DNA from: Acidobacteriota bacterium
GTDB lineage: Bacteria; Acidobacteriota; Blastocatellia; UBA7656
DNA length: 64,000 bases
Direction: 5' to 3'
Assembly: GCA_038040445.1 (NCBI GenBank)
Contig: JBBPIG010000002.1
Span: 321,847 to 385,846, forward strand
Part shown: piece after piece, positions 23,364 through 30,848 of the stretch
How positions within the stretch are numbered: position 1 is the stretch's first letter
Layout: each line of letters starts with the position of its first letter
Notes under the pieces: generated by a model
Told to the model about the DNA's origin: nothing
Database searches by the model: none
Seen by the model: the letters and a program-made list of their open reading frames with translations, nothing else
Translations under genes and position numbers: made by a program

Positions 23364-24269
23364 ATGCACATCGAGTCTCTGAAAGTCTTTTGCGATCTCA
23401 TTGACACGCGGAGCTTCTCGAAGGCGGCGACCAAAAACTTCATCTCGCAATCAGCGGTGAGTCAGCAGATCCGCGCCTTAGAAGAGAAATTCAACCGCAG
23501 GCTGGTAGAGCGAAGCCGCGGGGGCAGCCTGGTGCCGACCGACGCAGGAATGACGTTTTATCAGGGTTGTCGCGAAATCATGGATCGCTTTAATAGCCTC
23601 ACCGAGGAGATGAAAGGGTTGGGCAACATCGTCAGCGGCCAGGTGCGGGTTGCGACGATCTATTCCGTGGGCATTCACGAGCTGTCGCCCGTGCTTAAGC
23701 GCTTCATCAAGTCGTTTCCGCAAGTCAACGTTCACATCGAGTACAGCCGCCCCAACAAGGTGTACGACGATGTCATCAATCACGTGATCGACATTGGGAT
23801 CGTGGCTTATCCGACGCCTCGGCCTCAGATCGAAATAATACCGTTTGGAAATGATCCGCTTGTTCTGGTGTGCAGCCCCGAACACGAGCTTGCAGCAAAA
23901 AAACGACTCGATATCGCCAGTCTTGATGGGCAGCGGTTCATCGGGTTCGAGCGTGACATTCCAACCCGTAAAGCGGTCGACAAAATTCTGCGAGACCGCG
24001 GCGTCAGTGTGCAGTATGTGATGGAACTCGACAACATCGAGACCGTCAAGCAATCGGTCGAAGCCGACCTGGGGGTGACCATCGTCCCGCGAGCTACGAT
24101 TCAAAACGAAGTGCGAGCCGGCACGTTGCGCGCCGTGAATTTTACGGAGAGTTTCGCGCGGCCGATTGGGATCATCCATCGCAAAGGGAAGATACTCAGC
24201 GCGGCCGCTCGCAAGTTTATTGAGATGTTGACTGAAGGACAGGCAGTCGCCAAGGACTCGCTCTCGTAG
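23364..24269 (+). CDS. LysR family transcriptional regulator
   Basis: 301 residues. Winged HTH at the N-terminus (FCDLIDTRSFSKAATKNF, then SQSAVSQQIRALEEKF), followed by a two-lobed periplasmic-binding-like effector domain (~res 90-295) with SGQVRVATIYSVGIHEL at its start. The overall pattern is close to CysB/CbbR-type regulators. Divergent from the ABC permease with a 230-bp gap, where it may bind, but no inverted T-N11-A site is obvious. Effector unknown. Confidence 0.93.
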   Translation: MHIESLKVFCDLIDTRSFSKAATKNFISQSAVSQQIRALEEKFNRRLVERSRGGSLVPTDAGMTFYQGCREIMDRFNSLTEEMKGLGNIVSGQVRVATIYSVGIHELSPVLKRFIKSFPQVNVHIEYSRPNKVYDDVINHVIDIGIVAYPTPRPQIEIIPFGNDPLVLVCSPEHELAAKKRLDIASLDGQRFIGFERDIPTRKAVDKILRDRGVSVQYVMELDNIETVKQSVEADLGVTIVPRATIQNEVRAGTLRAVNFTESFARPIGIIHRKGKILSAAARKFIEMLTEGQAVAKDSLS

Positions 24270-27842: not shown

Positions 27843-28616
27843 ATGTCAAACCCCCTATTCGATCTAACCGGCAAAGTGGCAATTGTCACCGGTTCAACAA
27901 AGGGCATCGGACGAGCGATCGCCGAGGCGTTGGCGCGCGCCGGCGCCAACGTCGTCATCTCGAGCCGGAAGGCCGACAATTGCGAAGAAGTCGCCAACGC
28001 CATCAAGGCTGAAGCTCTCGACGCAACGGCCATCCCCTGCCACATCGGCAAGCGAGAGGACGTCGAGCATCTCGTCTCTGAAACCAGGAAGCGTTACGGC
28101 AAGATCGACGTGCTGGTGTGCAACGCAGCCGTCAATCCCTACTACGGCCCGATGTCCGGCTTGAGCGATGATGCGTTCACCAAGGTCATTGACTCAAACG
28201 TCCGCAGCAACGTCTGGCTCTGCAACCTGGTGATTCCGGAGATGGCCGGGAGAAAAGATGGCAGCGTGATCGTCGTTTCGAGCATCGGTGGGCTCAGAGG
28301 CTCGCACCATCTCGGTATCTATGCCATTTCGAAGGCCGCCGATTTTCAGTTAGCGCGAAACCTGGCTGTCGAATGGGGGCCGCAAAACGTCCGGGTCAAC
28401 TGCATCGCGCCGGGACTTGTCCGCACCGACTTCGCTCGCGCGCTGTGGGAGAATCCGGAGTTGTTGGCCAAGGCTGAAGCGGCTACTCCGCTGCGCCGCA
28501 TCGGCGAGCCTGATGACATCGCCGGAGCCGCGGTTTTTCTTGCATCGCGCGCCGGCAATTGGACGACGGGCCAGGTGATTGTGATCGACGGCGGCGTGAC
28601 CATCGGCCCAGGTTGA
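27843..28616 (+). CDS. Short-chain dehydrogenase/reductase
   Basis: 257 residues. Nucleotide-binding TGSTKGIGRAIAEAL (Gly-rich), CNAAVNPYYGP (NAG-like motif with Ala), catalytic Ser in VVSSIGG, and YAISKAA (Y-x3-K). Classical SDR of the FabG-like group that oxidises or reduces a hydroxyl/ketone with NAD(P)(H). It is followed without a gap by the thioredoxin-fusion gene and then the UGSC selenoprotein, so it probably belongs to that operon. Start ATG after CAGGAAAC. Confidence 0.93.
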   Translation: MSNPLFDLTGKVAIVTGSTKGIGRAIAEALARAGANVVISSRKADNCEEVANAIKAEALDATAIPCHIGKREDVEHLVSETRKRYGKIDVLVCNAAVNPYYGPMSGLSDDAFTKVIDSNVRSNVWLCNLVIPEMAGRKDGSVIVVSSIGGLRGSHHLGIYAISKAADFQLARNLAVEWGPQNVRVNCIAPGLVRTDFARALWENPELLAKAEAATPLRRIGEPDDIAGAAVFLASRAGNWTTGQVIVIDGGVTIGPG

Positions 28617-28631
28617 GTGTGGATCGACGCT

Positions 28632-30221
28632 ATGCTTGAAACCGGTCAACAGGCTCCGAGCTTCTCTCTCACACGGCTGGATGGAAAAGCGTCTGAGTTT
28701 GAGAGTGGCCGTCAATCGAAGCCGCGCCTCGTTGTGTTTTTCGAGACGGATTGCCCGACCTGCCGGTTGACGATTCCTTATCTCAATCGCCTCTCGCGCG
28801 AGCTTGGCGAGGCATCGGACATTCTCGGCATATCTCAAGACGGTGAGCACCCGACGCGAGAGTTGGTCGAGCAAGCTCCGATAGAATTTCCGGTCGCGCT
28901 TGATCACGGCCTCAACGTCAGTAAGATTTATGACCCGGTGGCGGTGCCAACACTCTTCCTCATCGGCAGCGACGGCCACATCCTTCAAACTCTAAGCGGC
29001 TTTGATAAGCGCGCCTTGAATGAAATCGCGACGGCGATGGCCGGCGAACCACTCACAATAGCCGAGCCCTTCGACGGCGCGCCCGATACCAAGTTCGGAT
29101 GCACGTCCCGGCATCTTGAAGCTGGCTCCGAAGGGGACCTCGCAGCCGCAGCGAACCCTTACATCAAGCGAGCCGCGCGCGCTACGCGCATCGAGCTGGA
29201 CGACTCGATCGACCCTTTCGAGTACTGCATGGCGTTTGGCGATCCGCTGCCGGTGATTCCGCCGACCGTCGATCGAGTCGAGCGCATGCTCGCAGCCGCC
29301 TCGCCGTCGCCAGATGAAGTTATCGGGCTGATTCCGCCCAACTACGGAGCGGCAACCGTGGAAAAGATCGCCGCCAACGCAGTGATGGCAGGTTGCAAGC
29401 CAGAGATGATGCGCGTATTGATTCCGCTGGTGCGAGCCGTGTGCGATGAGCGCTTCAACATTCACGGTGTGCAGGCGACCACTCATTTCGCCGCGCCGCT
29501 CGTGATAGTCAACGGGCCGATTCGCGGCGAGCTGGGCTTCGCTTGTGCAAGCAACGTCTTCAGCAACGTCGCTCGCGCGAACAGCACGCTGGGCCGCGCG
29601 CTGCAGTTGGTATTGACCAATCTGGGAGGCGCGCGACCCGGCGAGATCGATATGTCCACGCTCGGAAACCCGGGCAAGTTCTCCTACTGCATCGCCGAAA
29701 ACGAAGAAGAGAATCCGTGGTTGCCTTTGCACGTCGAAATGGGTTTCAGGCGCGAGCAGAGCACCGTGACCCTGTTCGCCGCTGAACCGCCGCACGGTGT
29801 AAGCGAACATATGGCGCGTGAGGGAAAACAGATCTTGAAGGCAATCAGCCGCGCGCTTGCGACGGTGTGGTCATATCGGGTATGCGCGGGCGTCGAGGCG
29901 CTGGTAGTGCTTTGCCCCGAGCACGTGAAGACGCTTCATCGCGACGGCTTCACCAAGCAAGCCGTGCGCGAGTTCCTATTTGAGAACACCGGCATTCCGA
30001 TTCGAGACTATCAACACGGCGCAGGCGAAGGGACTCAGTATGTGAAGCTCTACAGGCAGGCAGTGATCGACGGCGAGCCCTGCTACTTGAAGTTTCCCGA
30101 CCGCGCGGCAATCAAGCTCGTGGTCGCCGGGGGAACCGCCGGCAAGTTTTCGGCGGTGATCGGCAGTTGGGCAGCCGGCCCAAGAGGAAGTCAGATGGTT
30201 ACGTACCCAATTGCGGTATAG
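28632..30221 (+). CDS. Thioredoxin-like domain fused to a large unknown domain (UGSC selenoprotein partner)
   Basis: 529 residues from ATG; a GTG five codons upstream abuts the SDR stop and is possible. Residues 1-~150 form a redoxin/TlpA-type fold with DCPTCRLTIPYL (CxxC at about 41-44) and VAVPTLFLIG with the cis-Pro. The remaining ~370 residues (from about FEYCMAFGDPLPVIPPTVDRV) are a separate conserved-looking domain with several Cys (GCKPEM, YCIAENEEENPW, CPEHVKTLH). I do not recognise its function. The position before the UGSC gene and the redox N-terminus suggest the two proteins work together, perhaps with the CxxC reducing the Sec or Cys centre. Cytosolic: no signal peptide. Confidence 0.75.
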   Translation: MLETGQQAPSFSLTRLDGKASEFESGRQSKPRLVVFFETDCPTCRLTIPYLNRLSRELGEASDILGISQDGEHPTRELVEQAPIEFPVALDHGLNVSKIYDPVAVPTLFLIGSDGHILQTLSGFDKRALNEIATAMAGEPLTIAEPFDGAPDTKFGCTSRHLEAGSEGDLAAAANPYIKRAARATRIELDDSIDPFEYCMAFGDPLPVIPPTVDRVERMLAAASPSPDEVIGLIPPNYGAATVEKIAANAVMAGCKPEMMRVLIPLVRAVCDERFNIHGVQATTHFAAPLVIVNGPIRGELGFACASNVFSNVARANSTLGRALQLVLTNLGGARPGEIDMSTLGNPGKFSYCIAENEEENPWLPLHVEMGFRREQSTVTLFAAEPPHGVSEHMAREGKQILKAISRALATVWSYRVCAGVEALVVLCPEHVKTLHRDGFTKQAVREFLFENTGIPIRDYQHGAGEGTQYVKLYRQAVIDGEPCYLKFPDRAAIKLVVAGGTAGKFSAVIGSWAAGPRGSQMVTYPIAV

Positions 30222-30295
30222 ACCGCGGATCAGACGGATTTGACCGATCTACACAGATCCGTGCCAAATCTGTCTGATCCGTCTAATCCGTGGTC
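30221..30295. repeat. Foldback element, ACGGATT family
   Basis: GACCGCGGATCAGACGGATT is countered by AATCCGTGGTC and GTCTGATCCGTC around a ~25-nt loop; about 20 of 25 positions pair. It fills the 96-bp gap between the thioredoxin-fusion stop (30221) and the ribosome site of the UGSC gene. Same family as the element at 34581-34685 (GTGGTCTAT / ATAGACCACGGAT). Confidence 0.8.
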
Positions 30296-30317
30296 GATTG
30301 TTTCTGATGGAGGTGAA

Positions 30318-30848
30318 ATGCCAACAACCCTTGTGAACCCGCTCGACGAAACCCCGCGCGTGTTTTCGAAGCCGGCAGCACGGCTCAGTAGCCTGAGCGG
30401 CAAAACGATCGGGCTGCTCGACATAAGCAAGCCCGGCGGCAGCGTCTTCCTCGATCACCTCGAGCGGTTGTTGAAGCAGCGTTACGGCGTCGCCGAGATC
30501 GTTCGAGCTATGAAGCCTACCTTCACCAAGCCGGCGCCTGACGCGGTGATCGCAAAATTCCTCGACGCGAAATGCGACGCGGTGATCGAGGCGCTCGCCG
30601 ATTGAGGCTCGTGCACAACGTGCAGTTTGCACGATTCGACAAAGCTCGAGAGCCTTGGAATCCCGTCGGTGCCTGTGGCAACCACCGAGTTCGTGACCGC
30701 TGCTCGCGCGCAAGCCAGCGCGCTCGGCAGATCAGACCTTGATGCGGTCTACGTCGCGCACCCAATTCAGGATCAGACGAAGGAAGAGATCGAAGGAAAA
30801 GCGGAAGCTGTTCTCGAAGAGATTGCGAGACGGCTCATCAACGGATAG
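30318..30848 (+). CDS. UGSC-motif selenoprotein (in-frame TGA = selenocysteine 96)
   Basis: 176 residues if TGA at 30603-30605 is read as Sec. Starts at an ATG behind GATGGAGGTGAA. The frame before the TGA (SGKTIGLLDISKPGGSVFLDHL..PDAVIAKFLDAKCDAVIEALAD) continues in the same frame after it as U-GSCTTCSLHDSTKLE..VPVATTEFVTAARAQA, giving the signature D-U-G-S-C with C99 and C102. This matches the UGSC-containing selenoprotein family first noted in environmental sequence surveys; function unknown. It resembles the Sec site of GrdB-like proteins in being followed by a Ser/Thr-rich turn. A stem-loop fitting a bacterial SECIS begins 3 nt after the TGA. Split annotation as two short frames would miss it. 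Confidence 0.9.
30606..30637 (+). promoter_or_regulatory. Bacterial SECIS-like hairpin
   Basis: TCGTGCA (30609-30615) pairs with TGCACGA (30628-30634); after a bulged C, AAC pairs with GTT and the apical loop is GTGCA. The GU-containing loop starts 14 nt after the TGA, within the spacing expected of bSECIS elements that recruit SelB. It lies inside the coding sequence. Confidence 0.8.

Follow-up and report, generated by a model that had tools for sequence, protein, structure and literature searches.

Introduction

The UGSC family (NF041046 / PF24696) was described in 2008 from the selenoproteome of the Global Ocean Sampling survey, where it was among the commonest selenoprotein families (PMC2398784). 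A thioredoxin-like fold was suggested for it, no function was given, and a fusion to an unknown domain ('Unknown_1') was reported (PMC2398784). A variant decoded at TAG is known from Geodermatophilaceae. According to a 2026 review, UGSC belonged to the selenoproteins with largely uncharacterised functions (PMC13188914). Among GrdB-type enzymes, the fluoroacetate reductase FarB/FarE of Cloacibacillus, encoded in a small operon, has a selenocysteine (Sec) subunit that was proposed to cleave a C-F bond (PMC10838667).

Here we analysed a UGSC gene from an Acidobacteriota genome, located in a stretch of 64,000 nucleotides that is called the window below. The gene resembled the known family in that it matched both curated models, carried the UGSC motif and encoded Sec by TGA. 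In comparison to the literature, our analysis differed in three respects, namely a Rossmann/flavodoxin-like structure model, a near-obligate thioredoxin-linked partner and a relation to GrdB. No paper naming a UGSC partner or proposing GrdB-like chemistry was found among the papers of an open-access library.

Results

The positions of the gene, its signals and its neighbours are given in Table 1.

Table 1. Features of the UGSC locus in window coordinates
Feature	Position	Strand	Basis or remark
SDR-family oxidoreductase, directly upstream of the partner gene	27843..28616	+	not conserved beside UGSC in closest relatives
Partner gene: redoxin/AhpC-TSA domain with CPTC (about 28752-28763) fused to PART	28632..30221	+	start by comparison with relatives; listed from GTG 28617
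PART domain, conserved partner of UGSC	29172..30212	+	single copy in genome; no match in Pfam, in NCBIfam or among solved structures
Shine-Dalgarno sequence GGAGGTG, a good ribosome site for UGSC, before its ATG	30309..30315	+	read from sequence
UGSC-family selenoprotein gene, 176 aa, Sec at codon 96	30318..30848	+	family models, homolog alignment
In-frame TGA, selenocysteine codon	30603..30605	+	homologs from haloarchaea, Arthrobacter, Roseovarius and Variovorax have Cys
Conserved SECIS-type apical hairpin CGUGCA-GUU-UGCACG, GU loop, 13 nt after TGA	30619..30633	+	pairing, covariation, folding

The first-pass annotation had joined two frame pieces through the TGA and recognised the UGSC signature in the translation. 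Both points held: the frame was open, and with the TGA read through it gave ...VIEALAD-U-GSCTTC.... The read-through protein scored 164 bits against the Pfam model UGSC (PF24696; cut-off 25; residues 5-173) and 157 bits against NF041046 (cut-off 125; residues 28-173), and each alignment spanned both flanks of the TGA as a single piece. Among 24 aligned members U96, S98 and C99 were invariant, and the U/C-G-S-C motif was present. A collection of 80 related loci from many phyla had TGA at 77 of 77 legible sites. Homologs at loci L180, L181, L183-L186 and L188 carried Cys in the same column, so that Sec and Cys were exchanged at this position, and the relatives did not end at the TGA but ran past it with either TGA or Cys there.

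The host genome (6.75 Mb, 72 contigs) contained a single UGSC copy and all four components of the Sec machinery that the annotation had proposed to look for. Namely, selB scored 359 bits (cut-off 242) and selA 576 bits, selD contained its own TGA (context SCAGUAAK), and a tRNA-Sec gene (selC) with the anticodon UCA was found. A second tRNA-Sec-shaped gene was located in the same genome (G000:C5:159193-159283, minus strand, corresponding to 1501-1591 of locus L002). It scored 65.4 bits (gathering threshold 47), was missed by ARAGORN, and its anticodon loop CUGCAAA gave the anticodon GCA (Cys). This gene fits the described allo-tRNA / selC* types (PMC7609411), and allo-tRNAs have been reported from Acidobacteria. 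In the window itself, the best NCBIfam match of a LysR regulator gene at 23364-24269 was a selenium-metabolism-associated LysR family, below its cut-off (183 versus 250 bits); no similar gene was seen beside UGSC in close relatives.

A GU-loop hairpin downstream of the TGA had also been annotated. Its existence was borne out by conservation and covariation, but its conserved part began 13 nt after the TGA rather than 3 nt. Across the family it was a six-pair stem in which each pair formed in 89-99% of 85 distinct Sec-type sequences, and the loop was GUN in 81 of them. Covariation at nine tested positions gave 16 cells changed on both sides in comparison to 7.3 +/- 2.0 in shuffles (0 of 500 reached 16), and in the CTSW subgroup the change of UGC to UGG (Cys to Trp) was matched by G to C in the opposite arm. 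Folding of 30606-30640 alone, which had been suggested as a check, gave -12.7 kcal/mol (z -2.0). When the first 36 nt following the TGA were shuffled among synonymous codons, z was -2.5 for the hairpin in the window (1 of 100 as stable), and the family mean z was -1.8. The shuffle tests of the hairpin were inflated by relatedness of the sequences, with a stem that was also constrained by the coding sequence. In slid controls pairing was far lower (8-50%), but the changed-cell count was not lower in all of them. No Rfam family covered the hairpin. With a hairpin downstream of the UGA and a G in its apical loop, the gene had the features of a bacterial SECIS element.

These comparisons confirmed the TGA as a selenocysteine codon and supported the initial selenoprotein interpretation, with both refutation checks named in the annotation decided in its favour. 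In the standard code TGA means stop. The view that it is a normal stop here, or arose by a sequencing error, the gene being broken or merely read through, was practically untenable, being refuted computationally by its presence at all legible sites across many phyla, the complete Sec machinery of the host, Cys in that column elsewhere and the conserved hairpin downstream.

The redoxin-fusion gene and the SDR gene upstream of UGSC were both where the annotation had placed them. As guides to a redox pathway they fared differently: the redoxin fusion proved to be a conserved partner, but the SDR was not conserved in relatives. Namely, an ORF survey of the eight closest relatives found no SDR within 6.5 kb of UGSC. 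The SDR was thus rejected as a conserved member of the system, is probably not part of it, and was for this reason kept out of any pathway. The partner gene consisted of a CPTC redoxin domain and about 370 residues of an unnamed domain, PART. When the 394-residue C-terminal part of this gene was used as a query, nearly all UGSC genes of the phylum set had a relative beside them. Moreover, the 80 loci were collected by searching genomes with PART alone, and UGSC was present in 76 of them, 71 times within 400 nt (median gap 75 nt) and on the same strand in 74 of the 76; two of the four loci lacking UGSC lay at contig ends. Natural fusions placed UGSC and PART in a single reading frame. Thus, UGSC was almost never alone, and PART was its near-obligate partner. 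Between the partner gene and UGSC the window contained a palindromic dispersed repeat (30215-30300), with ten further genome matches, 72-79% identical, on both strands.

The conserved motifs of PART were DGLPVVPPT, TVEKxAxNAVMAGC, NGP, RANxTIGRA and GxPGKY..C.AENE..SPW. Sequence profile searches of Pfam, NCBIfam and PDB returned no significant relative. A model of a fused UGSC-PART protein was confident over the whole chain (pLDDT 89, pTM 0.88), and it had no PDB fold match below 1e-3. PART as a GrdE relative was ruled out, since the Pfam match was at chance level (0.071) and profile comparison gave an hhalign E of 0.44.

The partnership extended to thioredoxin. CPTC, CATC or CSTC was found in frame upstream of PART in 50 of 117 copies, and CxTC in more than 70 of them. 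Several PARTs that had no redoxin domain lay near thioredoxin system genes: the gene order was trxB-trxA-PART-UGSC in Arthrobacter and PART-UGSC-trxB in Roseovarius, trxB lay upstream of the pair in Variovorax, and a trxB-like reductase was near PART at locus L062. Computation thus linked UGSC-PART to thioredoxin.

Selenium genes also accompanied the pair. In ten loci selB immediately preceded PART-UGSC in the same orientation, with selA ahead of it in at least eight, and an Ndh-SelD fusion followed in three of the ten. A Paracoccus plasmid had selA, selB, trxB, UGSC and PART together. Plasmid neighbourhoods contained CaiB-type CoA-transferases, TRAP/TTT uptake systems, isocitrate-lyase-type enzymes and LysR regulators, suggesting a catabolic role. 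The catabolic neighbours differed by lineage and indicated no single substrate; tallies of neighbour genes gave scattered fatty-acid/CoA and uptake functions with no dominant pathway. On the IncP plasmid p2-T1 of Acidovorax sp. T1 (locus L182), a Sec-type UGSC was cut at the TGA by the annotation and adjoined IS1071 and IS91 transposases; this setting suggests recent spread. Published work on the biology of this plasmid added nothing useful, and no UGSC was found in phage records.

The AlphaFold2 model of UGSC (pLDDT 94, pTM 0.88) had alternating strands and helices with Sec96 just before helix 97-112, and the domain was predicted to be Rossmann/flavodoxin-like. A PDB fold search with this model gave only generic alpha/beta proteins, lumazine synthase for example, and no thioredoxin-like protein was among the best matches listed. 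The thioredoxin fold suggested in 2008 was contradicted by both results. Searching PDB with the UGSC profile gave nothing significant by sequence.

Among 18,950 NCBIfam models, the nearest neighbours after UGSC itself were Sec subunits of glycine, sarcosine, betaine and D-proline reductases, with matches to these models in 17, 17, 9, 8 and 2 of the 24 UGSC members. hhalign of UGSC against the PF07355 alignment gave 3.3e-6 and 87.8%, with the Sec, the following Cys, E..G.P and HP aligned; the controls gave 0.44 (PART-GrdE), 0.19 (PART-GrdB) and 0.17 (UGSC-GrdE). By these profile comparisons UGSC appeared closest to the Sec domain that forms the C-terminus of glycine reductase GrdB. The GrdB cut-offs were far from reached (19.3 bits versus 602 for TIGR01917 and 800 for NF040794), and since the partner differed as well, GrdB membership is not claimed. 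PF09338, by which a GrdE/PrdA-type partner subunit was looked for, was not found in the host genome, and no racemase family matched UGSC. As a separate observation, several genomes of the phylum encoded short GrdB-type (PF07355) proteins (L066-L079), many with an in-frame TGA in the context PVUPxC, which from their sequences appear to be another uncharacterised selenoprotein group.

The pair was strongly expanded in g57, a genus of family f33 in the same phylum. Ten of its genomes (G113, G122, G196, G258, G274, G250, G180, G037, G085 and G306) had, with the counts sorted by size and not by genome, 10, 11, 12, 14, 14, 17, 17, 19, 27 and 34 UGSC-PART matches. Most copies were fused and had one in-frame TGA, and selB was above its cut-off in all ten genomes. 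Since the hairpin was weaker and more varied here (mean z -1.2), Sec is likely but less certain in every g57 copy. Several paralogs began with apparent signal peptides, and the copies were apparently exported. The Sec column was occupied by Ser in three G037 paralogs and in one G113 paralog. Fused paralogs with Ser in place of Sec/Cys were located at L062:6180-7847 and L064:6254-11845 (G113, G037); the substitution suggests that they are inactive or work differently.

Discussion

We consider it rather probable that UGSC-PART is a two-component, thioredoxin-fed reductase, in which UGSC is the Sec-bearing catalytic half, PART the near-obligate other half, and the redoxin domain or TrxA/TrxB the donor. 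Computation showed that the residue is Sec, that the partnership is constant and linked to thioredoxin, which class of fold UGSC has and that its sequence is related to GrdB; the reductase activity and the direction of electron flow we infer, and the class of substrate and bond is a guess by analogy. Sec96 is placed at the start of a helix after the third strand of the predicted Rossmann/flavodoxin-like domain. By analogy with GrdB, it would attack a polarised carbon-heteroatom bond in a small, probably carboxylate-containing organic substrate that PART would hold. The resulting selenium adduct could be resolved by Cys99 (UGSC being a UxxC motif) or by the CPTC pair, and the selenol would be restored by thioredoxin or the fused redoxin domain, so that the CPTC redoxin domain or separate TrxA/TrxB would serve as electron donor to UGSC. 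Several findings counted against this model. The GrdB matches were far below the family cut-offs, PART was unrelated to GrdE, the catabolic neighbours agreed on no one substrate, and four of the 80 loci showed no UGSC. Ser in the Sec column of some fused paralogs was unexpected if every copy is a redox catalyst.

A redoxin/AhpC-type domain fused to PART, the UxxC motif, trxB/trxA adjoining the pair and apparent signal peptides of paralogs in one genus would also suit a thiol/selenol peroxidase or protein-disulphide reductase, recycled by thioredoxin and serving stress protection rather than metabolism. We regard this as unlikely, since UGSC had neither a thioredoxin nor a peroxiredoxin fold and its sequence relatives were substrate reductases of the GrdB type. 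Moreover, plasmid loci amid CoA-transferases, TRAP/TTT uptake systems and isocitrate-lyase-type enzymes fit catabolism better than stress.

Flavodoxin-like cofactor-free enzymes can bear nucleophiles at the place where the Sec/Cys of UGSC sits. This analogy at the level of the fold, together with the Cys forms of haloarchaea and the lyase- and racemase-type enzymes among the neighbours, would allow a redox-independent lyase, racemase or transferase with a Sec/Cys nucleophile, the selenol of which thioredoxin just keeps reduced. Such an enzyme seemed quite improbable, because the CxTC redoxin domains fused to PART and the trxB genes next to the pair argued for stoichiometric electron supply, the GrdB relatives are reductases and the profile searches gave no racemase match.

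In its widest form, our proposal of a thioredoxin-fed two-component reductase would make UGSC-PART a separate selenoenzyme class, the partner having a fold not seen before, that occurs in Acidobacteriota, Proteobacteria, Chloroflexota and, in the Cys form, haloarchaea. The pair would sometimes travel with its own selA-selB, and in one Acidobacteriota genus its 10-34 copies per genome, for the most part fused and Sec-bearing and apparently exported, would serve different substrates. For this whole picture we put the chance a little below even.

The near-obligate thioredoxin-linked partner and the relation to GrdB were new here, and with them a role of the UGSC family becomes testable for the first time. 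Given an invariable partner, a defined electron donor and sequence kinship to an enzyme of studied mechanism, UGSC can be assayed, and the Cys forms from Arthrobacter, Roseovarius and Variovorax permit selenium-free expression.

GrdB-type reductases receive their electrons through thioredoxin-linked supply, and UGSC would have this in common with them. GrdB/GrdF/GrdH and PrdB (TIGR01917, NF040794, NF040795, TIGR04483 and PF07355) also shared with UGSC a Sec followed by [GA][ST]C, the E..G.P and HP motifs, and a partner that is a separate protein. On the other hand, UGSC had nothing corresponding to GrdB's N-terminal half, its partner was not GrdE-like, and it was found in many aerobic lineages and haloarchaea. 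PART was unrelated to GrdE and, therefore, the active-site arrangement of GrdB is not transferable to UGSC-PART. By this comparison, UGSC is best read as GrdB-like in its putative chemistry, yet not a member of GrdB. FarB/FarE offered a precedent, as a GrdB-type Sec subunit proposed to act on a substrate that is not an amino acid; in contrast to UGSC-PART, FarB and FarE are true relatives of GrdB and GrdE, come from an anaerobe and have neither PART nor a redoxin fusion (PMC10838667).
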